Below are positions 36,101 to 64,000 of a DNA stretch of 64,000 nt, one piece after another (position 1 is the stretch's first letter; each line of letters opens with the position of its first letter). Both the position numbers and the translations under genes were made by a program. The DNA comes from Mesostigma viride (taxonomy: Eukaryota; Streptophyta; Mesostigmatophyceae; Mesostigmatales; Mesostigmataceae). The notes under the pieces are model-generated. The model made no database searches and was not told the DNA's origin. It was given only the letters and a program-made list of their open reading frames with translations. Location of the stretch: positions 547,219-611,218 of the forward strand of contig RPFO01000114.1 in assembly GCA_009746045.1 (NCBI GenBank), given 5' to 3'.

Positions 36101-38890
36101 ATCCTCATCATTAATTACATAATTGCCATCCATGTACGTACACGGGCCATGATGACACCATGGGAGCCTGAATCCTCATCATTAAGTACATACATGCCAT
36201 CCATGTACGTAGACGGGCCATGCATGATGAAACCATGGGAGCCTGAATCCTCATCATTTTTTTTTCTTTGACATCCATGTGTACACGTAGACACGCCATG
36301 ATGACACCATGGGAGCCTGAGTCCTCATCATTTTTTTTATGAGACATCCATGTACGTAGACGGGCCATGATGACACCATGGGAGCCTGAATCCTGATCAT
36401 TTTTTTTTCTTTGACATCCATGTACGTAGACGGGCCATGATGACACCATGGGAGCCTGAATCCTCATCATTAATTACATACATGCCATCCATGTACGTAC
36501 ACGGGCCATGATGACACCATGGGAGCCTGAATCCTCATCATTTACTATTCCTTGACATCCATGTACCTAGCCCAGCCATGGAGACACCATGGGAGCCTGA
36601 ATCCTCCTCATTAATTACATAAATGCCAACCATGTACGTAGACAAACCATGATGACACCATGGGAGCCTGAATCCTCATCATTTACTATTCCTTGACATC
36701 CATGTACGTAGGCCAGCCATGATGACACCAATGGAGCCTGAATCCTCTTCATTTTTTTTATGAGAGGATTCAGGTTACATAAATGCCAACCATGTAGGTA
36801 GACAAGCCATGATGACACCATGGGAGCCTGAATCCTCATCATTAAATACATAAATGCCATCCATGTACGTAGGCCAGCCATGATGACACTATGGGAGCCT
36901 GAATCCTCATCATTAATTTCATACATGCCAACAACACGTAGACGGGCAATGATTACACCATGGGAGCCTGAATCCTCCTCATTAATTACATAAATGCCAA
37001 CCATGTACGTAGACAAACCATGATGACACCATGGGAGCCTGAATCCTCATCATTTACTATTCCTTGACATCCATGTACGTAGGCCAGCCATGATGACACC
37101 AATGGAGCCTGAATCCTCTTCATTTTTTTTATGAGAGGATTCAGGTTACATAAATGCCAACCATGTAGGTAGACAAGCCATGATGACACCATGGGAGCCT
37201 GAATCCTCATCATTAAATACATAAATGCCATCCATGTACGTAGACGGGCCATGATGACACCATGGGAGCCTGAATCCTCATCATTATTTACATAAATGCC
37301 ATCCATGTACGTACACGGGCAATGATGACACCATGGGAGCCTGAATCCTCATCATTAATTACATAAATGCCATTCATGTACGTAGACGGGCCATGATGAC
37401 ACCATGGGAGCCTGAATCCTCATCATTTTTTTTTCTTTGACATCCATGTACGTGGACGGGCCATGATGACACCATGGGAGCCTGAATCCTCATCATTTTT
37501 TTTATGAGAGGATTCAGGTTACATAAATGCCAACCATGTAGGTAGACAAGCCATGATGACACCATGGGAGCCTGAATCCTCATCATTTACTATTCCTTGA
37601 CATCCATGTACGTAGCCCAGCCATGGAGACACCATGGGAGCCTGAATCCTCCTCATTAATTACATAAATGCCAACCATGTACGTAGGCCAGCCATGATGA
37701 CACTATGGGAGCCTGAATCCTCATCATTAATTTCATACATGCCAACAACACGTATACAAGCCATGATGACACCATGGGAGCCTGAATCCTCATCATTAAT
37801 TACATAATTGCCATCCATGTACGTACACGGGCCATGATGACACCATGGGAGCCTGAATCCTCATCATTAAGTACATACATGCCATCCATGTACGTAGACG
37901 GGCCATGCATGATGAAACCATGGGAGCCTGAATCCTCATCATTTTTTTTTCTTTGACATCCATGTGTACACGTAGACACGCCATGATGACACCATGGGAG
38001 CCTGAGTCCTCATCATTTTTTTTATGAGACATCCATGTACGTAGACGGGCCATGATGACACCATGGGAGCCTGAATCCTGATCATTTTTTTTTCTTTGAC
38101 ATCCATGTACGTAGACGGGCCATGATGACACCATGGGAGCCTGAATCCTCATCATTAATTACATACATGCCATCCATGTACGTACACGGGCCATGATGAC
38201 ACCATGGGAGCCTGAATCCTCATCATTTACTATTCCTTGACATCCATGTACCTAGCCCAGCCATGGAGACACCATGGGAGCCTGAATCCTCCTCATTAAT
38301 TACATAAATGCCAACCATGTACGTAGACAAACCATGATGACACCATGGGAGCCTGAATCCTCATCATTAATTACATAAATGCCATTCATGTACGTAGACG
38401 GGCCATGATGACACCATGGGAGCCTGAATCCTCATCATTTTTTTTTCTTTGACATCCATGTACGTGGACGGGCCATGATGACACCATGGGAGCCTGAATC
38501 CTCATCATTTTTTTAATGAGAGGATTCAGGTTACATAAATGCCAACCATGTAGGTAGACAAGCCATGATGACACCATGGGAGCCTGAATCCTCATCATTT
38601 ACTATTCCTTGACATCCATGTACGTAGCCCAGCCATGGAGACACCATGGGAGCCTGAATCCTCCTCATTAATTACATAAATGCCAACCATGTACGTAGAC
38701 AAACCATGATGACACCATGGGAGCCTGAATCCTCATCATTTACTATTCCTTGACATCCATGTACGTAGGCCAGCCATGATGACACCAATGGAGCCTGAAT
38801 CCTCTTCATTTTTTTTATGAGAGGATTCAGGTTACATAAATGCCAACCATGTAGGTAGACAAGCCATGATGACACCATGGGAGCCTGAAT
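30105..38890. repeat. Satellite array, forward orientation, central block with higher-order repeats
   Basis: The monomer family is the same as at 25015-27980, with about 120 monomers by length. Identical monomer strings recur with an offset of 4,661 bp (for example 30107/34768, 30529/35190, 31450/36111, 31954/36615). The offset falls to 4,290 bp after loss of one 371-bp sub-block (33084/37374, 33506/37796). Smaller duplications of 371 bp (31954/32325/32696) and 921 bp (30529/31450) are nested inside. It ends at the TGAAT target site of the copia element. Confidence 0.95.
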
Positions 38891-39362
38891 AGTTAGTCTC
38901 CATGCTTTGCTGTAGACTAAGTCTCAAAGGCATTGTGAATACAACGTATGAATAAGCCTTGTAAACCTACGTTGGTATGTGAATATAAATACCACGTGGG
39001 CTATGCAGATAGGAATGCTAGTCGAGTCGCATACGTTTCCCTAGATAGGTACTTTGGGTACTGAGGTACGTGACAGATGTCAGTACCCAGTATACGTAGT
39101 GTCCTGTCATTGGACGGTACTAGAGTATCCTAGATAGGGACCGTACTGCAGCGTGCATTGATTTGTGATCGCACGATGCAGTGACTAGACTGCTACCTGT
39201 CATCGTGTGGCCTCGGGCCAACGGTCTGCACCCAACGGTCACTGGCGGCGCAGCCGGTGAGAGGAACGTTGATAAAGGGTAAACCTATTTTCTAATGAAC
39301 CAAGCAATTCATTGCTCACAGCTTCAGTGTTCTCAAGCAATATATCCCACCGCATTCTAACT
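38891..39362 (+). repeat. 5' LTR of outer copia element
   Basis: 472 bp, from AGTTAGTCTCC to CATTCTAACT. It holds TATAAATA at 38984-38991 next to a CACGTG palindrome, a likely promoter. No clear tRNA primer-binding site was recognised just downstream. Confidence 0.93.
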
Positions 39363-41953: not shown

Positions 41954-41984
<31 letters not shown>

Positions 41985-43412: not shown

Positions 43413-43467
43413 AGCCAGGCCCACTTCACAACCTGGGGATTGCTTAACCAGGCACGAGGTAGCTGGG

Positions 43468-45400
43468 TTGGAAGCATTAGCTCAGCCCCAAGGCACCAAA
43501 TTGTCTGCCAACCCTCCCGCTCTGAGGTCAAGATTGGCAGTCGCCTTGCAAGCATTACACAGGTCACATAAGCAACAAGCTGCTGTGGCCGCAGGGTTGG
43601 CAAAAGTCTCAGCTGTGTGCACTAGTCAGGACCCCTGGACCCTGGCAATAGACACTCAGGCACAGGTCAGTGTGATCAGTGCACAAGCCATCCCTGGTCT
43701 TGAGATTGCACCTTCATTTTGGGCACGGGTGCAGGATTTCTCAGGCCAAAGCTCACTGGATGTAGTGGGACAAGTGATGCTCCCTATACTTGGTATTCAG
43801 ACACCCTTCCAGGTGGTGGAGGGGTACTCTGGTAACACCTTGTTGGGGGAACCTTTTGTATCCTATCCTGGGGTGCTTATCTCAGCTAATGAGCTCAGTG
43901 TCACAGGGGTGGGTGCAGTTCCTCTGGACCACTTTAAAATCCCTCTCTCCAGTATTGTCCCTGGTATGGATGCTGTCATCAAGGCAGTCAACACTCAGTA
44001 TGCACCAGGGGAGATCCCTGATCTGGACAAGTTAGTGCACAGCCAGTTCCTCCATCCCTCAGCCTTTGGGCTGGGTAAGTGGGACATAGCCATGCACTCA
44101 CCCCACCAAATCTCCCACGTCATACAAGAATGCAAAACACAAAAAGGGTTTACCAAGTGGCTGATGGCCATTGTCCACCAAGCCAGGCAGGAATGGGTCC
44201 TGCCCAACCCCAAAAACCCTCAATACAAACCGCCTGTCACCCCTTCATGGGACGTGCCAGAGGGAGCCAAAAAGCTCAGATTAAAATTTGTTCTCAAACA
44301 AAAACCACAAAAAGTGGGCTCCCCAATCTTCCATGCCAGACCATGTGTCACAGAATTAAAGGGGACCTCCACACTGCCAAAAGGGGAAACATACACACCT
44401 GGGCTGCAACAAACCTCACTCAGGATCATGCTCTCCCTCTTCCTCCACAACCTCAATGCAGGCCAAGACTATGTCTGCAAAGCCACTGATATTAAAAGGG
44501 CCTTCCTCAGGGGGGACCCAGAAAAGGCTGAATCTGTGTGGAAAGGGAAGGTGTACGTGGTAGACACCCCAGCTGTGTGGAAACCTTATATTGATGAGCC
44601 CCACCTTATCATCAACATTGGGGTGGAAGGGCTTGTCAGTGCCCCAAAAATTTTCAGAGACTCAGCAGAGGAAGTATTCAAAAAGCTCAAGGCCACGTAT
44701 GATGACCTGGACCCATGCTTTTTTGTTGTACCCACCCCCTCTGGACTGCTGTTCTTTGTGTGGCATGGAGATGACCAACTCATTTGTGGGCCTAGAGCTG
44801 AGGTGGAAACCTTTATTCAGCAGGTCCAGGAATCATATGAGATTGGCAAACAGGTGGAATTGAGCACAACCCCCATCCAGTTCTGTGGCATCATGTTGCA
44901 GCTGCATAGGCAGCCAGATCAGTGGGTCTGCTCTCTCTCCCCTCCTGCAGAATATATCCAAGATTGTCTAGATCTGCTGCAGGACAACTACCTCCCCTTA
45001 CATATGTGTGCCACTGTTCAGGGCAAACTGGGGTGGTGGTCAGCCATCTGTGGGGCTCCCTTAGCTGTCATCAGCAGGGTCACCCATGATGTTCTAGTCA
45101 AGATCAAATGCAGTCACATCAGGAAGTTGGTCAATGACTGTCCCCCCCTCATCCTCCATGGCCTGAATCTGATGGAAGACATCCACATCCAATGTGTCAT
45201 GGACAGCTCCATGGAGAGCAGAACAATCAATCAAATGGGGGCACGGGAATCAGGGCTGTTTTTTCTCACCAACAGGTCAGATTACATGTCCCTCACTTCC
45301 TGGTACAGCAGGCTACACCGCAGAAAACCTGGCAGCAGCAACTCAGCTGAATGTCGTGCTGTGGTGTCTGCTGCATTGCATGCTCGTTCCCTGCAGCACA
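43468..45400 (+). pseudogene. pol: Protease-like, RT and partial RNase H of outer copia element
   Basis: Contains IDTQAQVSVIS (retropepsin-like), KATDIKRAFLRGD and VWHGDDQLICG (RT palm), and the first RNase H motifs (CVMDSS, SAECRAVV). The element is cut at 45400 by insertion of the inner copy, inside codons for SLQH; the frame then runs into the LTR and stops at 45465. The rest of RNase H lies at 53055-53350. Confidence 0.85.
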
Positions 45401-45872
45401 AGTTAGTCTCCATGCTTTGCTGTAGACTAAGTCTCAAAGGCATTGTGAATACAACGTATGAATAAGCCTTGTAAACCCACGTTGGTATGTGAATATAAAT
45501 ACCACGTGGGCTATGCAGATAGGGATGCTAGTCGAGTCGCATACGTTTCCCTAGATAGGTACTTTGGGTACTGAGGTACGTGACAGATGTCAGTACCCAG
45601 TATACGTAGTGTCCTGTCATTGGACGGTACTAGAGTATCCTAGATAGGGACCGTACTGCAGCGTGCATTGATTTGTGATCGCACGATGCAGTGACTAGGC
45701 AGCTACCTGTCATCGTGCGGCCTCGGGCCAACGGTCTGCACCCAACGGTCACTGGCGGCGCAGCCGGTGAGAGGAACGTTGATAAAGGGTAAACCTATTT
45801 TCTAATGAACCAAGCAATTCATTGCTCACAGCTTCAGTGTTCTCAAGCAATATATCCCACCGCATTCTAACT
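45401..45872 (+). repeat. 5' LTR of inner copia element
   Basis: 472 bp. It shares CCCACG, AGGGATG and GACTAGGCAG with the LTR at 52577-53049 and not with the outer pair. Confidence 0.93.
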
Positions 45873-45890
45873 TGAATTTTATTTGCTACC

Positions 45891-48520
45891 ATGGCTATCA
45901 CGAACAAGAATGTCGCTAAGAAGCTTACCTACAACGAGGATGATGATGGGCAGGATCGGCGGATGCCCAGAGACAACAACAAGAAGCCGGCTGGCGATGC
46001 GGCCATTTCCAAGAAAAAGAAAAAGAACAAAAAGACTCACAATGGTTGCCAGGACGAGGGGACGGCGGCTGCAAAGCCGACCGACCTACCCCCCTCCCCT
46101 GCGAGGCCGGAGGCCGAGACGGCTCCCCCCGGGGAGACCGGCTTACCCTCGACTCCGGCGGCCGCCCCAGCCGCAACCACGGCTGGCGCGGCCATGGCTG
46201 CGGAGACCTCGGTGGTAAACCCCACTGAGGCTCCACAGTCCGGCCCCACGTTGCCATCTCTTCGGGAGCGTATGCCCCGTCAGACGGCCTCGGTGGCACC
46301 GGACGGGACGATTACCTTTCGTCCCGCCACATCAAACCTTAATGTCCCTTTCGCCCAGGGACATAACCACATTGAGCTAACGTTTGGGCGACCCTCTGCG
46401 TCCCTTCTTCGCAAGAAGAAGGACATGGAGAGTATTAAACTCGCACGGGTGGTGCGAAAACCTGTGGAACCCATCGCCGGACAACCAATGTCCGACGATG
46501 AGGTATCCGACACTGCCAGTCTCCCCGATGGGGAGACTGAGATCAATCTTACCCCAGCGCTCCTGGCGGTCGAGCAGGCCGCGCTGGTGGCAAATGAAGA
46601 ACGCCGAGCGCGGCAGCGGGACCGAGAGGTCCGCCGAGAGGCGGCTTTTCGGCTCGCCGCTAAGCGGCAAGAATATGAAGAGGAAGCCGCCCGTCGCCTG
46701 GCTACCCACCAGGCGATGGCGGACGCGTACCGCGAGGCCACCCAGCGGTTACGTGACCTCTTAAAAAATGCTGACTATCCCATGGACTATGCGGACAGTC
46801 AAGACCTGGCCGAGCTTGCTCGGTCAGCACACTTTAAAACCATGTCCTCCATCACCCAAGCCAGGGTCACGGAGGCCATCTTGGCCAAACATGGGGTGGT
46901 AGCTGAAGAAGCCCCCCCGCTGGAAACCACCAGCAAGAAACCCTCTCCCCCCCAACCCCTGCAGTACAAGGAGGGACTGCTGGCCCTGGGTGCGAGGAAG
47001 GGCAAAGAGGCGGACTGTCCAGTCCGGCCTGCTATGATCATGGGAGACCACTCCCTGACATACCCGAGGATGAGGCTGCCTTTCAGGCAGCCCTCCGGGA
47101 GCATGAGGTACGCAAGGAGATGAAGCGTCTCATGCGGGAGGAGGCCAGGAGGAGAGCAGAGGCAGACACCCCTGCCCGCCCCTCCACCGATGGGGCTGGA
47201 CCCAGTGGGGTTACCCGGACACCCCCGGGCTCCCCCAGGGCCACCATGACCCCCCCTCCCCCTCCCCCACCACCCCAGGTTCGCCCTGTGGGTTGGGGCC
47301 CCCTCCCAAACCAGGGGGGGTGGCCAGGACCCCAGGAGGCCCTGGGGGGAGGTGCAGAGGTGCCACAGGCACCCAACAGGCCTGCTGAGGCCCCCCCAAG
47401 GAGCGGGGATGTCCTGGAACAGCTCGCCATTCTCCAGGCCCAGCTGGCCTCGTTGCAAGATCAGCAGTTAACAGCTAACCAGCTGCAAACTGTCGAGGGC
47501 CTGCGCGCCCTGATGTCGCGGTATGAGCGGGGGACCATCAACCTGGACCCCACCCGCCTGCAACAAGCAACCGACAGCTTCTTGAGGGCCAACCCCCCTC
47601 TCACAGGTGTGTTTAACCCTCATAAAAAGGAATCCAAAATCAATATTGCTGGCTTGCCTGAGGGTCACACTGTTGAACAAGCTAAGCAATTTGTTTTTGC
47701 TTTGGAGTATGGGATGGAAGGTCTTAACCTTAGACATCAGTTTAAGGCTCTCAGGGCCTCCTCCACATTCCATCAATCATCTCCTGCAATCAGAGCATTG
47801 ATTCAAACCTATCAGGAACGTACCCTGACACCTGAAGCAGCCATTGAACAGTGGCCTACCTTTATCACTGATCTGAAACAGCTAGTGCTTACCAATAACC
47901 ACATGGAAGCAGTAGAACGTTTCAACTGGCTTGCTGCATATAAGGTGAACAAGAATAACCTCTCTGGGGATGCAAAAACATACAGGGTAATGATTGAGAA
48001 AGACCTTGAGCTTCTCAAGCTCCAACCAAGGTATCTCATCCACACCTGGCTAACAAAAGCTAATTTGCAACCTTCTGTCCTGGCTACCCTGCTTACAGGC
48101 CTCAAGTCCCTCTGGGACAACTTCAGAGCTGCCATGCTCTATATCGAGGAGGCAGTGGACCCCCTGGGTACTGGCAACAACCAGGCCCAGGACCCCAAGG
48201 TCCAGGGTGTCCAAGGCCACAAACGCAAGGGGCAGGCCAGCCAGGGGGGGCACCCAAGACCCACAAGTCCTCCCACCAAGGGGGCAGTGGCTCTCAGGGG
48301 CGTGGCAACACGTGGCACCGTGTGCCCCTGCATGGCAACCCCAACAACAACAACAACAACAACAACAACAGGTCCCAGCAGGGCAACAATAACAACAGGT
48401 CCCAACAGGGCCAAAACAACAACAACAACAGGTCCCAGCAGGGCCAGAACCGGTCCCAGCAGGGAAACAACAACAACAACAACAACAACAACCAGCCTGG
48501 CAACCCTGGGGGGTCCATAA
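45891..48520 (+). CDS. gag: gag-like protein of inner copia element (one frameshift)
   Basis: Structural protein of the element's particle. The frame from ATG 45891 is open to 47123; a missing A near 47045 (GGGAGACC against GGGAGAACC in the outer copy) shifts it. The continuing frame runs about 47050-48520. Domains: Lys-rich N terminus, Pro/Ala linker, Glu/Arg-rich helix (VRREAAFRLAAKRQEYEEE), second coiled coil, and a capsid-like helical region (47600-48170). The true nucleocapsid knuckle is not in this frame but in the overlapping -1 frame, reached at the G7 run 48244-48250. Composition changes from GC-rich to much less so near 47590. Confidence 0.8.
48244..48250 (+). promoter_or_regulatory. 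Candidate -1 ribosomal slippery heptamer (seven G)
   Basis: In the gag frame the run reads G GGG GGG, which fits X XXY YYZ. Slipping -1 enters the open frame that carries the Asn/Gln linker, zinc knuckle and integrase. The same run and phase occur in the outer copy (41733-41739). A hairpin (AGGGGC/GCCCCT outer stem, ACACG/CGTGT inner stem, 48296-48329) lies downstream, but 46 bases away, farther than usual. A fixed single-base mutation is the alternative. Confidence 0.4.
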
Positions 48521-49956
48521 GGTGCCTGAGGTGCTTCCAACGAGGGCACGCACGGCACAACTGCCCCAACAACGACTCCCTGGCCAACGGGGTGGATCTC
48601 TGCCCGGGCTGCTGGCACGCACGTCATCCCCTGGGGCCTCCAGGCAGCCGTTGCAACAGGCCTCGCTACCCAAATCAATGTGAGTTCACTCACCTTATGT
48701 ACTCTGAGGATGATGATCTCATTACCATTGGGGATGGCAACCAGGGCATAATTGATTTTGAGGCAGCAACCTTACTGTCCTCCCAACACCCTGTTCTGGA
48801 ACCTTACATAAAAGCACTAACCCCTACTGTTGACAACTCCATAGATATCAAGGAGCTTGCTCATCAGCTGCACCTAGCCATGGGTCATGAAACAGTGGCT
48901 GAGGAACTGGCCAGACGGCTGGGGGGTAGTAGCATGGGAAAACAACTCAGGAATGCAGTAAAACTGGCTAGACAACACTGTCAAGAATGTCAGTTCAATA
49001 GCCCCAAACCTCAAAAATGGCATACTGCAACTCCTTCCACCAATAGGGGCATGATAGTGGGGGATGTGATGCACATCAACAAAGATGTCCAACCCTACCT
49101 GATCCTAAAAGACTCATGGTCCAGGTTCACAGTAATGGAACCCCTACCTGGCATGTCTGCAGGGCAGCTACGTGTTGCACTCATGATTGCTTTACCCAGA
49201 TTCTACCCAGTTGACAGAATTTTGCTTGATCAACAATTTTCTTGTCTGACTGACCTGGAAGGGTGTGAAGCAATAGAGATTGCTGGGCTGGAAGATCATG
49301 AGGGTCAGGGGGTCATTGAAAGAACCATCAGATCTGTCAAAACCCTACTAGCCAAAAATCCTTCCAAGGATGCTACTTCAGGGGTCTATTGTGACAGGGC
49401 ACTCTGGTGTCATGAAATGTGCACAACCCTAAACATGAGACCTGTCTTGCATGCCACGTGGGGTGAAGTAATCCCAGCAGGCCTGCAGGCAGGTGTATAT
49501 CCCCCAGAGGTGATAGCACTGTACAACACTGCACGTGCACAAACCTCAGCAAAACTGGCAGAAAAAGATAAAACCCATTCCAGGCCAGTATTCCAAAAAG
49601 GTGATCAAGTTCTCTATTACAAGGAAAACAGCTTTGGTAAGGTTGGAACTTGGCTAGGTCCAGTTACCATCCGTGGATTTACCAAAAACAGCAAGACCGT
49701 GGAGGTCAAGCACAATATCAATGGGAAGCGTCACAGGGTGAGCTGTCATAGAATTAAGAAGTATTATTCTCCCATGGCAGACGTGCCTGGGGAAGAGTCT
49801 TTAAGCATGGACTCACTACTTCTATCTGGCAACTCCAGCATGCCCAGCAGTAGCTCTGAGCCACCAATTACTGCTGTTGACAGCACCACAGCACCCTCTG
49901 TGAACCTTCCACCCTCAGTGAAGCCAGGCCCACTTCACAACCTGGGGATTGCTTAA
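48322..49956 (+). CDS. pol: Zinc-knuckle and integrase polyprotein segment of inner copia element
   Basis: Inserts the cDNA copy into host DNA. Residues 1-60 are poly-Asn/RSQQG. A CX2CX4HX4C knuckle lies at about 68-81, followed by a second Cys-rich stretch (CPGCWHARH). The HHCC zinc site uses His around 181-189 and Cys 220 and 223. The catalytic core has Asp 248 (GDVMHINK), Asp 303 (RILLDQQ) and Glu 333 (GVIERTIRSVK). A C-terminal SH3-like part has KGDQVLYY, GTWLGPVTIRGF and HRVSCHRIKKYY. The listed start is not an ATG; translation probably enters from gag by frameshift. The stop at 49956 is followed by the protease/RT frame, again in the -1 frame and open in parallel from about 49880. Confidence 0.88.
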   Translation: MPLHGNPNNNNNNNNNRSQQGNNNNRSQQGQNNNNNRSQQGQNRSQQGNNNNNNNNNQPGNPGGSIRCLRCFQRGHARHNCPNNDSLANGVDLCPGCWHARHPLGPPGSRCNRPRYPNQCEFTHLMYSEDDDLITIGDGNQGIIDFEAATLLSSQHPVLEPYIKALTPTVDNSIDIKELAHQLHLAMGHETVAEELARRLGGSSMGKQLRNAVKLARQHCQECQFNSPKPQKWHTATPSTNRGMIVGDVMHINKDVQPYLILKDSWSRFTVMEPLPGMSAGQLRVALMIALPRFYPVDRILLDQQFSCLTDLEGCEAIEIAGLEDHEGQGVIERTIRSVKTLLAKNPSKDATSGVYCDRALWCHEMCTTLNMRPVLHATWGEVIPAGLQAGVYPPEVIALYNTARAQTSAKLAEKDKTHSRPVFQKGDQVLYYKENSFGKVGTWLGPVTIRGFTKNSKTVEVKHNINGKRHRVSCHRIKKYYSPMADVPGEESLSMDSLLLSGNSSMPSSSSEPPITAVDSTTAPSVNLPPSVKPGPLHNLGIA

Positions 49957-49976
49957 CCAGGCACGAGGTAGCTGGG

Positions 49977-52202
49977 TTGGAAGCATTAGCTCAGCCCCAA
50001 GGCACCAAATTGTCTGCCAACCCTCCCGCTCTGAGGTCAAGATTGGCAGTCGCCTTGCAAGCATTACACAGGTCACATAAGCAACAAGCTGCTGTGGCCG
50101 CAGGGTTGGCAAAAGTCTCAGCTGTGTGCACTAGTCAGGACCCCTGGACCCTGGCAATAGACACTCAGGCACAGGTCAGTGTGATCAGTGCACAAGCCAT
50201 CCCTGGTCTTGAGATTGCACCTTCATTTTGGGCACGGGTGCAGGATTTCTCAGGCCAAAGCTCACTGGATGTAGTGGGACAAGTGATGCTCCCTATACTT
50301 GGTATTCAGACACCCTTCCAGGTGGTGGAGGGGTACTCTGGTAACACCTTGTTGGGGGAACCTTTTGTATCCTATCCTGGGGTGCTTATCTCAGCTAATG
50401 AGCTCAGTGTCACAGGGGTGGGTGCAGTTCCTCTGGACCACTTTAAAATCCCTCTCTCCAGTATTGTCCCTGGTATGGATGCTGTCATCAAGGCAGTCAA
50501 CACTCAGTATGCACCAGGGGAGATCCCTGATCTGGACAAGTTAGTGCACAGCCAGTTCCTCCATCCCTCAGCCTTTGGGCTGGGTAAGTGGGACATAGCC
50601 ATGCACTCACCCCACCAAATCTCCCACGTCATACAAGAATGCAAAACACAAAAAGGGTTTACCAAGTGGCTGATGGCCATTGTCCACCAAGCCAGGCAGG
50701 AATGGGTCCTGCCCAACCCCAAAAACCCTCAATACAAACCGCCTGTCACCCCTTCATGGGACGTGCCAGAGGGAGCCAAAAAGCTCAGATTAAAATTTGT
50801 TCTCAAACAAAAACCACAAAAAGTGGGCTCCCCAATCTTCCATGCCAGACCATGTGTCACAGAATTAAAGGGGACCTCCACACTGCCAAAAGGGGAAACA
50901 TACACACCTGGGCTGCAACAAACCTCACTCAGGATCATGCTCTCCCTCTTCCTCCACAACCTCAATGCAGGCCAAGACTATGTCTGCAAAGCCACTGATA
51001 TTAAAAGGGCCTTCCTCAGGGGGGACCCAGAAAAGGCTGAATCTGTGTGGAAAGGGAAGGTGTACGTGGTAGACACCCCAGCTGTGTGGAAACCTTATAT
51101 TGATGAGCCCCACCTTATCATCAACATTGGGGTGGAAGGGCTTGTCAGTGCCCCAAAAATTTTCAGAGACTCAGCAGAGGAAGTATTCAAAAAGCTCAAG
51201 GCCACGTATGATGACCTGGACCCATGCTTTTTTGTTGTACCCACCCCCTCTGGACTGCTGTTCTTTGTGTGGCATGGAGATGACCAACTCATTTGTGGGC
51301 CTAGAGCTGAGGTGGAAACCTTTATTCAGCAGGTCCAGGAATCATATGAGATTGGCAAACAGGTGGAATTGAGCACAACCCCCATCCAGTTCTGTGGCAT
51401 CATGTTGCAGCTGCATAGGCAGCCAGATCAGTGGGTCTGCTCTCTCTCCCCTCCTGCAGAATATATCCAAGATTGTCTAGATCTGCTGCAGGACAACTAC
51501 CTCCCCTTACATATGTGTGCCACTGTTCAGGGCAAACTGGGGTGGTGGTCAGCCATCTGTGGGGCTCCCTTAGCTGTCATCAGCAGGGTCACCCATGATG
51601 TTCTAGTCAAGATCAAATGCAGTCACATCAGGAAGTTGGTCAATGACTGTCCCCCCCTCATCCTCCATGGCCTGAATCTGATGGAAGACATCCACATCCA
51701 ATGTGTCATGGACAGCTCCATGGAGAGCAGAACAATCAATCAGATGGGGGCACGGGAATCAGGGCTGTTTTTTCTCACCAACAGGTCAGATTACATGTCC
51801 CTCACTTCCTGGTACAGCAGGCTACACCGCAGAAAACCTGGCAGCAGCAACTCAGCTGAATGTCGTGCTGTGGTGTCTGCTGCATTGCATGCTCGTTCCC
51901 TGCAGCACATGCTCACCTGGCTACAAACCCAGGCAGGCAGCACATGCAATGTCATCTCACATCTCTATACTGACAGCCAATCTGTGATCAGTTTTCTAAC
52001 CAAGAAATCTGTTCTGCTGCTGTCCACACTGACTGGATTGGGTGATCCTCAAACAGGAGGCCACCTATTTTCCAGCTGGACTCATGTGGATGATGAGGAC
52101 AACCCAGCAGACGCTCTCACGAAGCTGCGGGATGCTGCTGGCCAACAGTACCAGCTCCTCTTTCAGAACATGAACCCCTATGATATCAGAGTCAGTGTTT
52201 GA
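49977..52202 (+). CDS. pol: Protease-like, reverse transcriptase and RNase H of inner copia element
   Basis: A 741-codon frame with no ATG at its start. Residues 58-75 (LAIDTQAQVSVISAQ) and 121-130 (NTLLGEPFV) resemble the two conserved parts of a retropepsin, with Gln replacing Gly in DTGA. The RT palm has KATDIKRAFLRGD (338-350) and HGDD (433-436) where copia elements usually have YVDD. RNase H shows Asp 579, Glu 628, Asp 666 (LYTDSQSV) and DNPADALTK (708-716). Between 678 and 700 three one-base losses relative to the outer copy garble about 20 residues and then restore the frame. The order INT, PR-like, RT is not the usual copia order. Confidence 0.88.
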   Translation: MEALAQPQGTKLSANPPALRSRLAVALQALHRSHKQQAAVAAGLAKVSAVCTSQDPWTLAIDTQAQVSVISAQAIPGLEIAPSFWARVQDFSGQSSLDVVGQVMLPILGIQTPFQVVEGYSGNTLLGEPFVSYPGVLISANELSVTGVGAVPLDHFKIPLSSIVPGMDAVIKAVNTQYAPGEIPDLDKLVHSQFLHPSAFGLGKWDIAMHSPHQISHVIQECKTQKGFTKWLMAIVHQARQEWVLPNPKNPQYKPPVTPSWDVPEGAKKLRLKFVLKQKPQKVGSPIFHARPCVTELKGTSTLPKGETYTPGLQQTSLRIMLSLFLHNLNAGQDYVCKATDIKRAFLRGDPEKAESVWKGKVYVVDTPAVWKPYIDEPHLIINIGVEGLVSAPKIFRDSAEEVFKKLKATYDDLDPCFFVVPTPSGLLFFVWHGDDQLICGPRAEVETFIQQVQESYEIGKQVELSTTPIQFCGIMLQLHRQPDQWVCSLSPPAEYIQDCLDLLQDNYLPLHMCATVQGKLGWWSAICGAPLAVISRVTHDVLVKIKCSHIRKLVNDCPPLILHGLNLMEDIHIQCVMDSSMESRTINQMGARESGLFFLTNRSDYMSLTSWYSRLHRRKPGSSNSAECRAVVSAALHARSLQHMLTWLQTQAGSTCNVISHLYTDSQSVISFLTKKSVLLLSTLTGLGDPQTGGHLFSSWTHVDDEDNPADALTKLRDAAGQQYQLLFQNMNPYDIRVSV

Positions 52203-52576
52203 ATAAATGACTGGCCATAGCACAGTACACAACCACCACACCCCCTTACCACAGCGATAGCTGCTGGGCGCCATAAAATTCAACACATTCGTTGTGGGGT
52301 GTGAGTGCTGGCTAGGTCAGATTTGTATCCATTTGCAGCTTGAGGACACAAGCTTTGTATCCATTTACTTAATGTGTGCTTCAGTACCTGGCCAAACCAG
52401 CCAGCTGTGTACACCTTATTTAATGTGCAATATAACACCTGGCCAGAACAGCCAGCTGTAACCAACCTGGCTCAACCAGCCATGTCTCTTTTGTACCCCT
52501 AATCAACTTAAAAACAATAACAATAATGTTGGGGGTGCAGACCTGCATTAAGAAATAAATAATAAAACAATACTGG
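52203..52576 (+). other. 3' non-coding part of inner copia element
   Basis: AT-rich, with GGCCAAACCAGCCAGCTGT-like repeats near 52390-52480 and GTTGGGGGTGCAGAC at about 52528-52542. That stretch is the only purine-rich tract and lies about 35 bp before the LTR, so it may or may not be the polypurine primer. The same segment follows the outer copy at 53351-53724. Confidence 0.6.
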
Positions 52577-53049
52577 AGTTAGTCTCCATGCTTTGCTGTA
52601 GACTAAGTCTCAAAGGCATTGTGAATACAACGTATGAATAAGCCTTGTAAACCCACGTTGGTATGTGAATATAAATACCACGTGGGCTATGCAGATAGGG
52701 ATGCTAGTCGAGTCGCATACGTTTCCCTAGATAGGTACTTTGGGTACTGAGGTACGTGACAGATGTCAGTACCCAGTATACGTAGTGTCCTGTCATTGGA
52801 CGGTACTAGAGTATCCTAGATAGGGACCGTACTGCAGCGTGCATTGATTTGTGATCGCACGATGCAGTGACTAGGCAGCTACCTGTCATCGTGCGGCCTC
52901 GGGCCAACGGTCTGCACCCAACGGTCACTGGCGGCGCAGCCGGTGAGAGGAACGTTGATAAAGGGTAAACCTATTTTCTAATGAACCAAGCAATTCATTG
53001 CTCACAGCTTACAGTGTTCTCAAGCAATATATCCCACCGCATTCTAACT
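52577..53049 (+). repeat. 3' LTR of inner copia element
   Basis: 473 bp. It matches the LTR at 45401 except for one extra A (CAGCTTACAGTG against CAGCTTCAGTG). Confidence 0.93.
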
Positions 53050-53350
53050 GCACATGCTCACCTGGCTACAAACCCAGGCAGGCAGCACATGCAATGTCAT
53101 CTCACATCTCTATACTGACAGCCAATCTGTGATCAGCTTTCTAACCAAGAAATCTGTCTCTGCTGCTGTCCACACTGACTTGGATTGGGTGATCCTCAAA
53201 CAGGAGGCCACCTATTTTTCCAGCTGGACTCATGTGGATGATGAGGACAACCCAGCAGATGCTCTCACGAAGCTGCGGGATGCTGCTGGCCAACAGTACC
53301 AGCTCCTCTTTCAGAACATGAACCCCTATGATATCAGAGTCAGTGTTTGA
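53050..53350 (+). pseudogene. pol: Remaining RNase H end of the outer copia element
   Basis: It resumes after the duplicated GCACA with codons for MLTWLQTQAG, LYTDSQSVISF, DLDWVILKQEATYF and DEDNPADALTK, ending in TGA at 53348-53350. The stretch garbled in the inner copy is intact here. Confidence 0.9.
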
Positions 53351-53724
53351 ATAAATGACTGGCCATAGCACAGTACACAACCACCACACCCCCTTACCAC
53401 AGCGATAGCTGCTGGGCGCCATAAAATTCAACACATTCGTTGTGGGGTGTGAGTGCTGGCTAGGTCAGATTTGTATCCATTTGCAGCTTGAGGACACAAG
53501 CTTTGTATCCATTTACTTAATGTGTGCTTCAGTACCTGGCCAAACCAGCCAGCTGTGTACACCTTATTTAATGTGCAATATAACACCTGGCCAGAACAGC
53601 CAGCTGTAACCAACCTGGCTCAACCAGCCATGTCTCTTTTGTACCCCTAATCAACTTAAAAACAATAACAATAATGTTGGGGGTGCAGACCTGCATTAAG
53701 AAATAAATAATAAAACAATACTGG
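53351..53724 (+). other. 3' non-coding part of outer copia element
   Basis: Nearly identical to 52203-52576, including GTTGGGGGTGCAGAC and the AT-rich run up to the LTR. Confidence 0.7.
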
Positions 53725-54167
53725 AGTTAGTCTCCATGCTTTGCTGTAGACTAAGTCTCAAAGGCATTGTGAATACAACGTATGAATAAGCCTTGTAAAC
53801 CTACGTTGGTATGTGAATATAAATACCACGTGGGCTATGCAGATAGGAATGCTAGTCGAGTCGCATACGTTTCCCTAGATAGGTACTTTGGGTACTGAGG
53901 TACGTGACAGATGTCAGTACCCAGTATACGTAGGGTCCTGTCATTGGACGGTACTAGAGTATCCTAGATAGGGACCGTACTGCAGCGTGCATTGATTTGT
54001 GATCGCACGATGCAGTGACTAGACTGCTACCTGTCATCGTGTGGCCTCAGGCCAACGGTCTGCACCCACTGACGGTCACTGGCGGCGCAGCCGGTGAGAG
54101 GAACGTTGATAAAGGGTAAACCTATTTTCTAATGAACCAAGCAATTCATTGCTCACAGCTTTCAGTG

Positions 54168-55041
54168 AGTTACGTTAAACAGTGCCGGAACCTTTTGCCC
54201 ACTGAGGCAAATCGGGCCGGAACACTATTTTGCCCGGAATAACCACTTCCGAGCACCCAAGTTAATTCGGCCGAATTAACTTGGGTGCTCGGAAGTGGTT
54301 ATTCCGGGCAAAATAGTGTTCCGGCCCGATTTGCCTCAGTGGGCAAAAGGTTCCGGCACTGTTTAACGTAACTAAAACCTGGCCTCGTGGAGGGGGGACG
54401 AAGAGCCCGAGACATCCGCCTAGGCCGCTGAGCACGCACCACTAAATGCGCCGGAGCTGCCTCAGTGAGGATTCGAACCCCTGACCTCCAAGGTGCACGG
54501 GTTTTAGTTACGTTAAACAGTGCCGGAACCTTTTGCCCACTGAGGCAAATCGGGCCGGAACACTATTTTGCCCGGAATAACCACTTCCGAGCACCCAAGT
54601 TAATTCGGCCGAATGAACTTGGGTGCTCGGAAGTGGTTATTCCGGGCAAAATAGTGTTCCGGCCCGATTTGCCTCAGGCGGCAAAAGGTTCCGGCACTAT
54701 TTAACGTAACTAAAACCTGTGCAACTTGGAGGTCAGGGGTTCGGATCCGGACAGCTCCGGCGCATTTAGTGGTGCGTGCTCAGTGGCCTAGGCGGATGTC
54801 TCATATTCAACCCACCCTCCACGAGGCCAGGTTTTAGTTAGGTTAAACAGTGCCGGAACCTTTTGCCCACTGAGGCAAATCGGGCCGCAACACTATTTTG
54901 CCCGGAATAACCACTTCCGAGCACCCAAGTTAATTCGGCCGAGTTAACTTGGGTGCTCGGAAGTGGTTATTCCGGGCAAAATAGTGTTGCGGCCCGATTT
55001 GCCTCAGTGGGCAAAAGGTTCCGGCACTGTTTAACCTAACT
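54168..55041. mobile_element. Foldback insertion of three 206-bp palindromes with two inverted spacers
   Basis: Palindromes are at 54168-54373, 54506-54711 and 54836-55041, each two 103-bp arms meeting at CGG|CCG with no loop. The first is perfect by eye and the others have a few mismatches. The two spacers (54374-54505 and 54712-54835) are largely reverse complements of each other, so the whole 874 bp is itself a palindrome. TCAGTG flanks it at 54162-54167 and 55041-55046 and occurs once in the uninterrupted LTRs, so it is a target duplication of 5-6 bp. It has no coding capacity and must use another element's enzyme. Confidence 0.9.
54712..54835 (+). other. tRNA-like promoter boxes in reversed order inside the foldback spacer
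   Basis: GGTCAGGGGTTCGGATCC (B-box/T-arm-like) is followed by TCAGTGGCCTAGGCGG (A-box-like). The minus strand of 54374-54505 has the better B box GGGGTTCGAATCC, then CTGAGGCA, then TGCTCAGCGGCCTAGGCGG. The 3' half therefore precedes the 5' half, and their ends can partly pair. No full cloverleaf was found. Confidence 0.4.
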
Positions 55042-55079
55042 CAGTGTTCTCAAGCAATATATCCCACCGCATTCTAACT

Positions 55080-56440
55080 TGAATCCTCATCATTAAATAC
55101 ATAAATGCCATCCATGTACGTACACGGGCAATGATGACACCATGGGAGCCTGAATCCTCATCATTAGTTACATAAATGCCATTCATGTACGTAGACGGGC
55201 CATGATGACACCATGGGAGCCTGAATCCTCATCATTCCAAGTTTCTTTGACATCCATGTACGTGGACGGGCCATGATGACACCATGGGAGCCTGAATCCT
55301 CATCATTTTTTTTATGAGAGGATTCAGGTTACATAAATGCCAACCATGTAGGTAGACAAGCCATGATGACACCATGGGAGCCTGAATCCTCATCATTAAA
55401 TACATAAATGCCATCCATGTACGTAGACGGGCCATGATGACACCCTGGGAGCCTAAATCCTCATCATTAATTACAAAATCGCCATCCATGTACGTAGACG
55501 GGCCATGATGACACCATGGGAGCCTGAATCCTCATCATTTACTATTCCTTGACATCCATGTACGTACACGGGCCATGATGACACCATGGGAGCCTGAATC
55601 CTCATCATTTTTTTTTTCTTTGACATCCATGTACATACGTAGGCCAGCCATGATGACACCAATGGAGCCTGAATCCTCATCATTAATTACATACATGCCA
55701 TCCATGTACGTAGACGGGCCATGATGACACCAATGGAGCCTGAATCCTCATCATTAATTACATAAATGCCAACCATGTACATACACGGGCAATGATGACA
55801 CCATGGGAGCCTGAATCCTCATCATTTTTTTTTTCTTTGACATCCATGTACATACGTAGGCCAGCCATGATGACACCAATGGAGCCTGAATCCTCATCAT
55901 TAATTACATACATGCCATCCATGTACGTAGGCCAGCCATGATGACACCATGGGAGCCTGAATCCTCATCATTTACTATTCCTTGACATCCATGTACGTAG
56001 GCCAGCCATGATGACACCAATGGACTCAGCCTGAATCCTCATCATTTTTTTAATGAGAGGATTCAGGTTACATAAATGCCAACCATGTAGGTAGACAAGC
56101 CATGATGACACCATGGGAGCCTGAATCCTCATCATTAATTACATAAATGCCATCCATGTACGTAGACGGGCCATGATGACCCCATGCCAGGAGCCTAAAT
56201 CCTCATCATTAATTACATAAATGCCATCCATGTACGTAGACGGGCCATGATGACCCCATGCCAGGAGCCTAAATCCTCATCATTAATTACAAAATCGCCA
56301 TCCATGTACGTAGACAAGCCATGATGACACCATGGGAGCCTGAATCCTCATCATTAATTACATACATGCCATCCATGTACGTAGACAAGCCATGATGACC
56401 AAATGGGAGCCTGAATCCTCATCATTAGTTACATAAATGG
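55080..56440. repeat. Satellite array, forward orientation, right block
   Basis: The same monomer family continues after the copia target duplication TGAAT. Several monomers are more diverged (CCATGCCAGGAGCCTAAATC at 56184 and 56257). Confidence 0.95.
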
Positions 56441-59400
56441 ATGGCATGTATGTAATTACATAATGATGAGGAATCAGGCTCCCATGGTGTCATCATGGCC
56501 CGTCTACGTACATGGATGGCATTTATGTAATTAATGATGAGGATTCAGGCTCCCATGGTGTCATCATGGCCTGTCTACGTACATGGATGTCTCAGAAAAA
56601 AAATGATGAGGATTCAGGCTCCCATGGTGTCATCATGGCTGGCCTACGTACATGGATGTCAAAGAAAAAAAAATGATCAGGATTCAGGCTCCCGTGGTGT
56701 CATTATGGCCCGTCTACGTGTTGTTGGCATGTATGAAATTAATGATGAGGATTCAGGCTCCCATGGTGTCATCATGGCTGGCCTACGTACATGGATGTCA
56801 AAGAAAAAAAAATGATCAGGATTCAGGCTCCCATGGTGTCATCATGGCTGGCCTACGTACATGGTTGGCATTTATGTAATTAATGATGAGGATTCAGGCT
56901 CCATTGGTGTCATCATGGCTGGCCTACGTATGTACATGGATGTCAAAGAAAAAAAAATGATGAGGATTCAGGCTCCCATGGTGTCATCATGGCTGGCCTA
57001 CCTACATGGTTGGCATTTATGTAATTAATGATGAGGATTCAGGCTCCCATGGTGTCATCATGGCTTGTCTACGTACATGGATGGCATGTATGTAATTAAT
57101 GATGAGGATTCAGGCTCCATTGGTGTCATCATGGCCCGTCTACGTACATGGATGGCATGTATGTAATTAATGATGAGGATTCAGGCTCCATTGGTGTCAT
57201 CATGGCTGGCCTACGTACATGGATGTCTCATAAACAAAATGATGAGGATTCAGGCTCCCATGGTGTCATCATGGCCCGTCTACGTACATGAATGGCATTT
57301 ATGTAATTAATGATGAGGATTCAGGCTCCCATGGTGTCATCATGGCTGGCCTACGTACATGGATGGCATGTATGTAATTAATGATGAGGATTCAGGCTCC
57401 ATTGGTGTCATCATGGCTGGCCTACGTACATGGATGTCTCATAAACAAAATGATCAGGATTCAGGCTCCCATGGTGTCATCATGGCTGGCCTACGTACAT
57501 GGTTGGCATTTATGTAATTAATGATGAGGATTCAGGCTCCATTGGTGTCATCATGGCTGGCCTACGTATGTACATGGATGTCAAAGAAAAAAAAATGATG
57601 AGGATTCAGGCTCCCATGGTGTCATCATGGCTTGTCTACGTACATGGATGGCATGTATGTAATTAATGATGAGGATTCAGGCTCCATTGGTGTCATCATG
57701 GCCCGTCTACGTACATGGATGGCATGTATGTAATTAATGATGAGGATTCAGGCTCCATTGGTGTCATCATGGCTGGCCTACGTACATGGATGTCTCATAA
57801 ACAAAATGATGAGGATTCAGGCTCCCATGGTGTCATCATGGCCCGTCTACGTACATGAATGGCATTTATGTAATTAATGATGAGGATTCAGGCTCCCATG
57901 GTGTCATCATGGCTGGCCTACGTACATGGATGGCATGTATGTAATTAATGATGAGGATTCAGGCTCCATTGGTGTCATCATGGCTGGCCTACGTACATGG
58001 ATGTCTCATAAACAAAATGATGAGGATTCAGGCTCCCATGGTGTCATCATGGCCCGTCTACGTACATGAATGGCATTTATGTAATTAATGATGAGGATTC
58101 AGGCTCCCATGGTGTCATCATGGTTTGTCTACGTACATGGATGGCATTTATGTATATAATGATGAGGATTCAGGCTCCATTGGTGTCATCATTGCCCGTG
58201 TACGTACATGAATGGCATTTATGTAATTAATGATGAGGATTCAGGCTCCCATGGTGTCATCATGGCCCGTCTACGTACATGGATGGCATGTATGTAATTA
58301 ATGATGAGGATTCAGGCTCCATTGGTGTCATCATGGCTGGCCTACGTACATGGATGTCTCATAAACAAAATGATGAGGATTCAGGCTCCCATGGTGTCAT
58401 CATGGCCCGTCTACGTACATGAATGGCGTTTATGTAATTAATGATGAGGATTCAGGCTACCATGGTGTCATCATGGCTGGCCTACGTACATGGATGGCAT
58501 GTATGTAATTAATGATGAGGATTCAGGCTCCATTGGGGTCATCATGGCTGGCCTACGTACATTGATGTCAAGGAATAGTAAATGATGAGGATTCAGGCTC
58601 CATTGGGGTCATCATGGCTGGCCTACGTACATGGATGTCAAGGAATAGTAAATGATGAGGATTCAGGCTCCCATGGTGTCATCATGGCTGGCGTACGTAC
58701 ATGGATGGCATGTATGTAATTAATGATGAGGATTCAGGCTCCATTGGTGTCATCATGGCTGGCCTACGTACATGGATGTCTCATAAACAAAATGATCAGG
58801 ATTCAGGCTCCCATGGTGTCATCATGGCTGGCCTACGTACATGGTTGGCATTTATGTAATTAATGATGAGGATTCAGGCTCCATTGGTGTCATCATGGCT
58901 GGCCTACGTATGTACATGGATGTCAAAGAAAAAAAAATGATGAGGATTCAGGCTCCCATGGTGTCATCATGGCTTGTCTACGTACATGGATGGCATGTAT
59001 GTAATTAATGATGAGGATTCAGGCTCCATTGGTGTCATCATGGCCCGTCTACGTACATGGATGGCATGTATGTAATTAATGATGAGGATTCAGGCTCCAT
59101 TGGTGTCATCATGGCTGGCCTACGTACATGGATGTCTCATAAACAAAATGATGAGGATTCAGGCTCCCATGGTGTCATCATGGCCCGTCTACGTACATGA
59201 ATGGCATTTATGTAATTAATGATGAGGATTCAGGCTCCCATGGTGTCATCATGGCTGGCCTACGTACATGGATGGCATGTATGTAATTAATGATGAGGAT
59301 TCAGGCTCCATTGGTGTCATCATGGCTGGCCTACGTACATGGATGTCTCATAAACAAAATGATGAGGATTCAGGCTCCCATGGTGTCATCATGGCCCGTC

Positions 59401-60195
59401 TACGTACATGAATGGCATTTATGTAATTAATGATGAGGATTCAGGCTCCCATGGTGTCATCATGGTTTGTCTACGTACATGGATGGCATTTATGTATATA
59501 ATGATGAGGATTCAGGCTCCATTGGTGTCATCATTGCCCGTGTACGTACATGAATGGCATTTATGTAATTAATGATGAGGATTCAGGCTCCCATGGTGTC
59601 ATCATGGCCCGTCTACGTACATGGATGGCATGTATGTAATTAATGATGAGGATTCAGGCTCCATTGGTGTCATCATGGCTGGCCTACGTACATGGATGTC
59701 TCATAAACAAAATGATGAGGATTCAGGCTCCCATGGTGTCATCATGGCCCGTCTACGTACATGAATGGCGTTTATGTAATTAATGATGAGGATTCAGGCT
59801 ACCATGGTGTCATCATGGCTGGCCTACGTACATGGATGGCATGTATGTAATTAATGATGAGGATTCAGGCTCCATTGGGGTCATCATGGCTGGCCTACGT
59901 ACATTGATGTCAAGGAATAGTAAATGATGAGGATTCAGGCTCCATTGGGGTCATCATGGCTGGCCTACGTACATGGATGTCAAGGAATAGTAAATGATGA
60001 GGATTCAGGCTCCCATGGTGTCATCATGGCTGGCCTACGTACATGGATGGCATGTATGTAATTAATGATGAGGATTCAGGCTCCATTGGTGTCATCATGG
60101 CTGGCCTACGTACATGGATGTCTCATAAACAAAATGATGAGGATTCAGGCTCCCATGGTGTCATCATTGCCCGTGTACGTACCTGGATGGCATTA
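56441..60195. repeat. Satellite array in inverted orientation
   Basis: From about 56441 the monomer core appears as its reverse complement (GATGAGGATTCAGGCTCCCA). Monomer strings recur with a 1,342-bp offset (57631/58973, 58570/59912). Linkers are the same set as in the forward block. The array ends with GGATGGCATTACAAGG near 60195. Confidence 0.95.
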
Positions 60196-62502: not shown

Positions 62503-63114
62503 GCATGCCATGTCGACGCTGCACTGACACACACCAGGGACTTTGGAAGGTGCGCACCCAGCCCGCCCAGGTAATTGATGCGGTGTTTTGCAGGCGCGCA
62601 CCGCCGGATGCGCCCACCACGCCCGCCACCGCACGTCCAGTGACCGACTGTGGTCCACGTTCTTTGTCGCCTGCGGGTGCAGCCCCCATAATGCGTACGA
62701 GCAGCTTCACGGCTTTCTTCTTTGGAAATCAAGAACAACGGGCCTGACAACAACAACAACGACAGCAGCATCAGCTCCAACAAGAGTGAGTTGCGGGATT
62801 TTACCTACGTGGTTTTCCTAATTTTTTTTCACCTGGCATGTTGAGTATTCATCCCATTTTGCGTCATGACGGCTTCCTGAACGACGACTCTCTCTCCCTC
62901 TCCCTCTCCCCCCCCTCTCCCTCTTATTTTTCACCAGGTTTTTCATGCCGATTTTTAATCCCTTTTGCGTCATGCTCCTTGTAGCGTGATGTCGTCAATT
63001 GTCACTCACAACCATGCTATCATTGTGGTTTGTTCTTTTTCGCCTGCGGGTGCAGGTCACGAGCGTTGCGTGCGGTGCGTCATCAATCCAAGAACAAAAC
63101 ACGATGTGGCTAAA
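62503..63114. other. No supported gene; short direct repeats
   Basis: TCGCCTGCGGGTGCAG occurs at 62667-62682 and 63040-63055. CCCATTTTGCGTCATG and CCCTTTTGCGTCATG occur near 62853 and 62960. A short GC-biased frame (62588-62821) may be a gene fragment. The block looks like a decayed direct duplication of about 110-370 bp. Confidence 0.4.
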
Positions 63115-63857
63115 CCCTCCCTCCCTCCCTCCCTCCCTCCCTCCCTCCCTCCCTCCCTCCTCCCTCCCTCCCTCCCCCTCCCTCCCTCCCTCCCTCCCTC
63201 CCTCCCTCCCTCCCTCCTCCCTCCCTCCTCCCTCCCTCCCTCCCTCCCTCCTCCCTCCCTCCCTCCCTCCCTCCCTCCCTCCCTCCCTCCTCTCCTCCCT
63301 CCTCCTCCCTCCCTCCCTCCCTCTCCCTCCTCCTCCTCTCCCTCTCCCTCTCCCTCTCCCTCTCCCTCTCCTCTCCTCTCCCTCTCCCTCTCCCTCTCCC
63401 TCTCCCTCTCCCTCTCCCTCTCCCTCTCCCTCTCCCTCTCCCTCTCCCTCTCCCTCTCCCTCTCCCTCTCCCTCTCCCTCTCCCTCTCCCTCTCCCTCTC
63501 CCTCTCCCTCTCCCTCTCCCTCTCCCTCTCCCTCTCCCTCTCCCTCTCCCTCTCCCTCTCCCTCTCCCTCTCCCTCTCCCTCTCCCTCTCCCTCTCCCTC
63601 TCCCTCTCCCTCTCCTCTCCCTCTCCCTCTCCCTCTCCCTCTCCCTCTCCCTCTCCCTCTCCCTCTCCTCTCCCTCTCCCTCTCCCTCTCCCTCTCCTCT
63701 CCCTCTCCCTCTCCCTCTCCCTCTCCCTCTCCCTCTCCCTCTCCCTCTCCCTCTCCCTCTCCCTCTCCCTCTCCCTCTCCCTCTCCCTCTCCCTCTCCCT
63801 CTCCCTCTCCCTCTCCTCTCCTCCCTCCCTCCTCCCTCCCTCCCTCCCTCCATCCCT
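63115..63857. repeat. Polypyrimidine (CCCT/CCCTCT)n tract
   Basis: About 740 bp of almost uninterrupted C and T on the plus strand, first CCCT units, then CTCCCT hexamers, then CCCT again. Ser/Pro/Leu or Arg/Gly/Glu frames across it are artefacts. It can form triplex (H-DNA) and is likely to be unstable. Confidence 0.95.
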
Positions 63858-63858
63858 C

Positions 63859-64000
63859 TTACGGTTACGGTTACGCTTACGGTTACGCTTACGGTAACGC
63901 TTACGCTTACGCTTACGCTTACGCTTACGCTTACGCTTACGCTTACGCTTACGCTTATGCTTACGCTTACGCTTACGCTTACGCTTACGCTTACGCTTAC
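63859..64000. repeat. (TTACGC)n hexamer array reaching the window edge
   Basis: It begins with mixed TTACGG and TTACGC units, includes one TAACGC and one TTATGC, then becomes pure TTACGC for over 15 units to the last base. It resembles a telomere-type hexamer in unit length and TTA start, but no known telomere has this sequence to my knowledge. Confidence 0.95.

Follow-up and report, generated by a model that had tools for sequence, protein, structure and literature searches.

The 874-bp insertion at positions 54168–55041 of the window, the 64,000-nucleotide stretch of Mesostigma viride DNA analysed here, belongs to a dispersed family of non-coding mobile elements and consists of three palindromes in mirror image. 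Its layout is P-S-P-S'-P, where P is a 206-bp palindrome, S and S' are two mirrored spacers, and the ends of S are designated L and R (Table 1). We consider, with a probability of roughly 0.55, that it is TRIM-like and non-autonomous, that its "LTR" is palindromic throughout, and that it moves by mobilisation in trans and forms dimers through fold-back priming.

The initial annotation of this DNA described six copies of a 103-bp arm, alternating in direction and with zero-length loops; the arms do pair in this way, forming three P's with the self-complementarity listed in Table 1. It also held that the insertion is built only of palindromes, which is true of the P's and not of the spacers. The latter are, as proposed, reverse complements of one another, with 85% identity and with indels. 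Aligned with its own reverse complement, the entire insertion is 93% identical over 884 columns, gaps included. That it is a real insertion with a target duplication likewise stands, while the duplicated sequence, given as 5–6 bp (TCAGTG), needs correction. The host LTR is also present as empty copies, which had been suggested as a check, and three of them lie in the window; since CAGTG occurs once in these and flanks the insertion left and right at the filled site, the duplication is exactly 5 bp, CAGTG. No full-length copy of the arm was found elsewhere in the 64-kb window.

Table 1. Features of the palindromic insertion and of the surrounding retrotransposon array in the window.
Feature	Position	Strand	Evidence or remark
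5-bp duplication TGAAT of the host array, left	38886..38890	.	right copy at 55080-55084
Empty LTR copy of the host element, AGTTAG..CTAACT	38891..39362	+	LTR comparison
Empty LTR copy of the host element	45401..45872	+	LTR comparison
Host reverse transcriptase ORF, RVT_2-like	49977..52202	+	23.6 bits vs Pfam cut-off 31.6
Empty LTR copy of the host element	52577..53049	+	LTR comparison
Host LTR, interrupted by the insertion; first bases AGTTAG, last bases CTAACT	53725..55079	+	LTR copy comparison
Left target-site duplication CAGTG	54163..54167	.	direct reading; single CAGTG in three empty LTR copies
Palindrome P, outer, AGTTACG..CGTAACT, 206 bp, perfect	54168..54373	.	206/206 columns self-complementary
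Spacer S, forward, 132 bp	54374..54505	+	L end AAAACCTGG.. on the left, R end on the right
tRNA-like structure over the P/S junction	54458..54546	-	5' portion lies in the middle P, 3' portion in S
Palindrome P, middle; mirror centre 54608/54609	54506..54711	.	198/206 columns self-complementary
Spacer S', 124-bp variant, reverse	54712..54835	-	sequence comparison with S
Palindrome P, outer, AGTTAGG..CCTAACT	54836..55041	.	204/206 columns self-complementary
Right target-site duplication CAGTG	55042..55046	.	direct reading; empty LTR copies

The assembly containing the window (439.9 Mb, 2,243 contigs) was searched for relatives. The outer 23-mer of the arm was found at 1,577 + 1,598 = 3,175 places with at most two mismatches, against 0 for a reversed control, and full-length relatives of the insertion were found on both strands at 91–97% identity (40 scored of 939 first-look candidates). 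With the arm end this frequent and relatives at dozens of places, a chance origin is excluded, and the proposal that an arm present nowhere else would mark an assembly artefact finds no application here. P meets the R end of S at 526 + 527 junctions and the L end at 565 + 566, corresponding to about 1,100 spacers in the genome. Subtracting junctions from arm ends leaves the outer ends, and these give roughly 500 arrays with ~2.2 spacers each, a rough estimate which combines three search patterns of unequal tolerance. The end pattern of the family had 0 matches in viral contigs.

All 35 distinct family-1 arrays whose two ends could be read have one exact 5-bp target duplication, which in a single array extends to 6 bp within a run of C. 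This sample comprises fetched loci with arms of at least 85% identity; truncated, contig-cut and N-bounded arrays were left out. It contained arrays with 0 (1), 1 (1), 2 (23), 3 (4) and 4 (3) spacers, and one each with 6, 7 and 9, so that single, double and longer forms, which the initial annotation had proposed to count, do exist. Two spacers is the commonest form in this sample, which is dimer-biased, the relatives search having had the dimer as its query. Fifteen arrays taken from the outer-23-mer list, which favours long arrays with perfect ends, had one spacer in one case, two in six and three or more in eight. From 0 to 9 spacers, all arrays are bounded by whole P's ending AGTTA..TAACT. 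P-S-P monomers are represented by loci L018 and L070, the arms of the latter having diverged below the 85% cut-off, yet with the duplication GTCAG, and a solo P with its own duplication occurs at L078 and L075. The array L042 reads as two dimers with one P in common. We also observed that a six-spacer array (L039) and a dimer (L066) lie at the same position in two diverged copies of one repeat, with GCCGC on both sides; their 10-bp flanks agree and their longer flanks differ, making L066 a further array with a duplication, outside the 35. A 1.7-kb piece nested in one arm at L038 was considered as an autonomous copy and rejected, its flanks being, by eye, those of an ordinary insertion into a palindrome centre.

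A second family of palindromes, P2 (AGTTATT..), was found on contig C206 and other contigs. It follows the same plan as family 1, with an arm 74% like that of family 1 and a mostly different spacer of 198 bp, in which likeness is confined to 26 bp at the R end (85%). All six family-2 insertions with both ends readable carry 5-bp duplications (L058, L071, L072, L073, L074 and the solo P at L075). Within one set of ten stretches, three had no clear duplication, namely L076, L077 and L069; the last (C36:645700-646700) belongs to another subfamily (AGTTAATATAAATAGTGACGGA) with short palindromes. A 70-bp short form of P2 constitutes the outer end in L072 and L073, and the long P2 (L043/L058, L072, L073) has the look of two short forms flanking a palindromic core, as though the nesting were repeated one level lower.

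In both families the spacers almost always face the mirror centre with the same end, R. Among family-1 P's flanked by spacers on both sides, we counted 31 R-P-R, one L-P-L and seven same-direction arrangements, working from the first 100 exact junctions listed out of 1,053 for R and the first 100 out of 1,131 for L. The corresponding counts in family 2, drawn from 100 of the 283 R places and 99 of the 291 L places, were 36, 0 and 4. Free recombination through the palindrome would be expected to give R-P-R, L-P-L and same-direction forms in the ratio 1:1:2. The binomial values for R-P-R versus L-P-L (1.5e-8 and 2.9e-11, respectively) are descriptive, the copies being related by descent and not independent. 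The 24 distinct dimers collected at separate targets are R-centred, only that form having been collected, and the sample of 35 arrays is also devoid of L-centred dimers. Given the 26 bp that the two spacers have in common at R, the families may owe their shared R-centred plan to descent and not to independent origin.

The symmetry of these elements appears to be renewed repeatedly. In 83 of 139 contexts P is a perfect palindrome, and the 118 P's of 206 bp contained 196 mirrored variants, compared with 71 on re-pairing of the halves. Against this, only three of 12 variants private to one P were mirrored, which would be expected if some mutations postdate insertion. At the level of whole dimers, 240 difference events separated the arms of the 24 dimers from their partners, versus a mean of 356 on random re-pairing (0/2000 re-pairings as low). 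Yet, counting ties, only 12 of the 48 arms had their own partner as nearest arm, the majority lying closer to another. Perfect palindromes make up three of the 24 dimers (L005, L044 and L064), with lengths of 882, 888 and 882 bp, and in a comparison of six of the most symmetrical dimers, the differences among these three were mirrored in both arms in 12/12, 14/14 and 2/2 cases. Since independent point mutations would not mirror, one of the two arms is a copy of the other, and this holds for more than one lineage. The mirrored differences point to recurrent fold-back copying, of which they provide a direct read-out in the chromosome, and they fit the hairpin-ended or template-switching replication suggested from the symmetry of the single insertion. 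L044 and L045 differ by a single, unmirrored change per arm. The dimers carry spacers of the 132/132 type, the 124/124 type (L059) or, as in the window, one of 132 and one of 124 bp; because the mixed form, six of the 24 distinct dimers, sits at six different targets, a whole dimer can move without being remade by fold-back. Great instability is to be expected of zero-loop palindromes close to 900 bp long. The initial annotation had regarded the survival or faithful assembly of DNA like the insertion as noteworthy, and this assembly carries perfect examples together with an abundant dispersed family.

The insertion has split an LTR of a copia-like retrotransposon. The surrounding element, 38886–55084, reads as a multi-LTR array (LTR-int-LTR-int-LTR-partial int-LTR) with one duplication, TGAAT. 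Its family is abundant, with 60 scored places matching the reverse transcriptase ORF at 98–100%, and four of five other copies, read from their flanks, have AGTTAG..CTAACT ends and 5-bp duplications (ATGTG, CCAAG, CCGAC and TGTAT); the 5' end of the fifth lies outside the fetched slice. As a control, two other Copia families, one copy each, have TG..CA ends, a TGGTATCGGAGG primer site and a 5-bp duplication. The palindrome arrays therefore have unusual ends and duplication length in common with one retrotransposon lineage, the terminus shared by P and the host LTR being only about 6 bp. From these matching ends and duplications we infer that the arrays would be mobilised in trans by the host lineage, which is a testable candidate partner. 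They also weigh against the frame of MITEs and foldback elements implied initially, as do the layouts, which are those of a solo LTR, of LTR-internal-LTR and of tandemly arrayed TRIMs (TA-TRIMs).

The host element is possibly a divergent Copia lineage with AG..CT ends, and it has no obvious tRNA primer site. A Pfam scan of its ORFs returned no integrase domain, only weak RVT_2 and weak zinc knuckle matches, and integrase-like motifs were seen by eye alone. A solved-structure search with the gag/integrase-like ORF returned nothing meaningful, and an AlphaFold model of a 261-residue piece of it was too poor for use (mean pLDDT 42.8). A 71-bp satellite unit (TGAATCCTCATCATT..) forms large arrays at 25000–38900 and 55080–60000 of the window; repeats of this type surround the copia-like element and also palindrome arrays of both families on C206. 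Elsewhere in the window, two minus-strand ORFs (244–1167 and 2318–3421) match the RPE65/carotenoid oxygenase family (Pfam 6e-38 and 3e-9), an ORF at 10816–11937 consists of Cys-rich repeats of ~30 residues (CGCTGSCSCGPVCKCENCTCADCPNKK..), metallothionein-like in look, and a long CT-rich low-complexity stretch (62965–63897) yields spurious LSLSLS and RGRGRG ORFs.

The R junction may constitute a relic or a working Pol III module. The Rfam tRNA model (RF00005) aligns over it at full length with 22.6 bits, below the gathering threshold of 29, and family 1 has an acceptor-like stem, GCCTCAG/CTGAGGC (fold z = -3.28). The minus strand of S carries GGTTCGAATCC, which we take to be B-box-like, close to the R end, and TTTT at the L border of S is presumably terminator-like. 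The family-2 R junction scored 17.4 with the tRNA model and 21.7 with the mascRNA-menRNA model (threshold 42.5), with a fold z of -1.69 for its stem. An equally good stem site occurred in 0.5% of shuffled P ends for family 1 and 18% for family 2, and the 124-bp spacer is without the acceptor partner. In the window, Rfam at the gathering threshold gave no match and ARAGORN in its bacterial setting found no tRNA; miRNA-family matches at a relaxed Rfam threshold were rejected as the hairpin itself.

In the proposed TRIM-like element, P would be the LTR and the 132-bp S the internal region, with a P on both sides. A single strand ending in P on the R side would fold back on the palindrome and prime itself, and the self-primed copying would run through S as far as the distal P; the product would be an inverted dimer centred on R and bounded by whole P's. 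The R end, with its tRNA-like, possibly Pol III, module, would be the 5' end of the RNA and the 3' end of the cDNA. Integration would be performed in trans by the AGTTA..TAACT-type copia-like integrase of the host retrotransposon, and higher orders would result from unequal exchange between P's. Insertion with a 5-bp duplication, R-centred dimers and mirrored copying are observed in the copies described above. An RNA intermediate, a mobilising integrase and a priming site are what the scheme would add to them, and a fold-back route through DNA only is possible.

Some observations sit uneasily with this scheme. Heterodimers can move as units, most arms are nearest to a non-partner, only three of 12 private variants are mirrored, the L044/L045 changes are unmirrored and the R-centred plan of the two families may be inherited. 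Also against the TRIM-like reading are the short shared terminus, the lack of a convincing primer-binding site or polypurine tract and the lack of a Pfam integrase domain in the host ORFs; against the Pol III part are the sub-threshold tRNA scores, the loss of the acceptor partner from the 124-bp spacer and the frequency of the family-2 stem among shuffles. Perhaps the palindromic LTR replaces LTR strand transfer altogether, the minus-strand cDNA folding on its palindrome beside the tRNA-like Pol III module and priming the second strand, an extension that we advance only tentatively. If true, it would describe a self-primed cycle, the inverted dimers of which are inserted by a copia-like integrase and leave perfect palindromes of ~900 bp in the chromosome.

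The principal alternative, a plausible minority reading, is a class II MITE or foldback element, namely a 206-bp P with AGTTA termini served by an unseen transposase, of which the longer forms would be composites and the dimers products of DNA-level fold-back through hairpin repair or a replication template switch. Solo P's with their own duplication, the movement of heterodimers as units and the unclear primer site and polypurine tract are all as such an element would have them; mirrored changes need no RNA, and the ends are inverted repeats, though by construction of the palindrome. It would however leave the agreement of both termini and duplication length with the host LTR element to coincidence, no gene-enclosing partner was seen by eye among 100 of 3,175 and 100 of 1,555 places, a far from exhaustive set, and P-S-P and solo P fit LTR biology equally. 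A link to Polintons was sought through DNA polymerase B (PF03175) and gave no match, but the controls were silent too, making the result uninformative.

If single P-S-P insertions had merely grown and been inverted at their sites, with the palindromic P's as substrates of unequal exchange and inversion, arrays of three to nine spacers with one duplication and mixed orientation, such as L042, would be accounted for. The same process predicts equal numbers of R-P-R and L-P-L, whereas 31:1 and 36:0 were seen. The 24 dimers collected as R-centred forms lie at separate targets, the 35 arrays include no L-centred dimer, and the one-spacer forms from which they would have to grow are rare (1/35, and one versus six dimers among the 15 outer-23-mer arrays). 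As the origin of the dimers local recombination is largely refuted, and as a general explanation we find it improbable. A replicon of the parvovirus type, replicating by a rolling hairpin with P as terminal hairpin, would leave P-S-P-S'-P as an unresolved product, which is the geometry of parvovirus dimer replicative forms, and its arms would be symmetrised as they are here; both ends of S should then serve equally, yet nearly all centres are R, and this too we judge improbable. Such palindromes are difficult to clone and to sequence, and an assembly artefact might be suspected; the target duplications, the empty copies, variants that differ per locus and duplicate contigs which agree in structure and flanks (L003/L004, L059/L060 and L018/L048) reduce its probability to a negligible level.

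MITEs and foldback elements are non-coding, hairpin-forming elements with inverted repeats and target duplications. Inverted ends, a weak likeness given that P is a palindrome, and a duplication of fixed length are shared with them; here there is no loop, each insertion has several palindromes, the termini are shared with an LTR retrotransposon and no transposase partner was seen by eye among the places listed (100 of 3,175; 100 of 1,555). A SINE was rejected, the tRNA-like match being below gathering, no tail being seen and duplications being 5 bp throughout. In size the element agrees with TRIMs, having repeats within ~100–250 bp and a short interior, and P is a direct and an inverted repeat at once, being a palindrome. 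We write "TRIM-like" instead of "TRIM" because the ends are AG..CT, as in the presumed partner, and not TG..CA. By eye, TGG occurs 6 nt inside the L end of S in family 1 and not in family 2, and no polypurine tract was seen.

Searches of the open literature, as far as its accessible text extends, returned no description of a palindromic LTR element or of R-centred inverted dimers, and to that extent the combination of a fully palindromic repeat, a fixed centre and mirrored copying is undescribed. Cassandra is a TRIM with 5S RNA in its LTR, and the available part of the source calls its arrays tandem (PMC7215508). It resembles the present element in that it is an LTR element without coding capacity and its unit contains an RNA gene of Pol III type; here the module is tRNA-like, a weak match, and spans the repeat/internal junction. 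The biv-TRIMs of bivalves form TDRx_I(x-1) arrays and solo repeats with no recognised primer site, and their inner domain has tRNA similarity and small inverted repeats or palindromes (PMC6934838). Arrays, solo repeats, the apparent lack of a recognised primer site and tRNA similarity are common to both, while the palindromes of biv-TRIM are in the inner domain, and the accessible sections of that paper describe no palindromic terminal repeat or mirrored dimer. The closest likeness in layout is to the TA-TRIMs, for example Zma-SMART, which form an L(n+1)I(n) series (L2I1, L3I2, L5I4) with 5-bp duplications in four examples; in maize L3I2 is the most frequent form (63/93), and one array figured in the portion of the article available to us has two inverted TRIMs (PMC4717578). 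Both are short, non-coding, repeat-internal-repeat units which share repeats and have 5-bp duplications. In contrast to TA-TRIMs as presented there, the present element has no evident primer site or polypurine tract; its repeat is palindromic, its ends are AGTTA..TAACT and R-centred inverted dimers are the rule.
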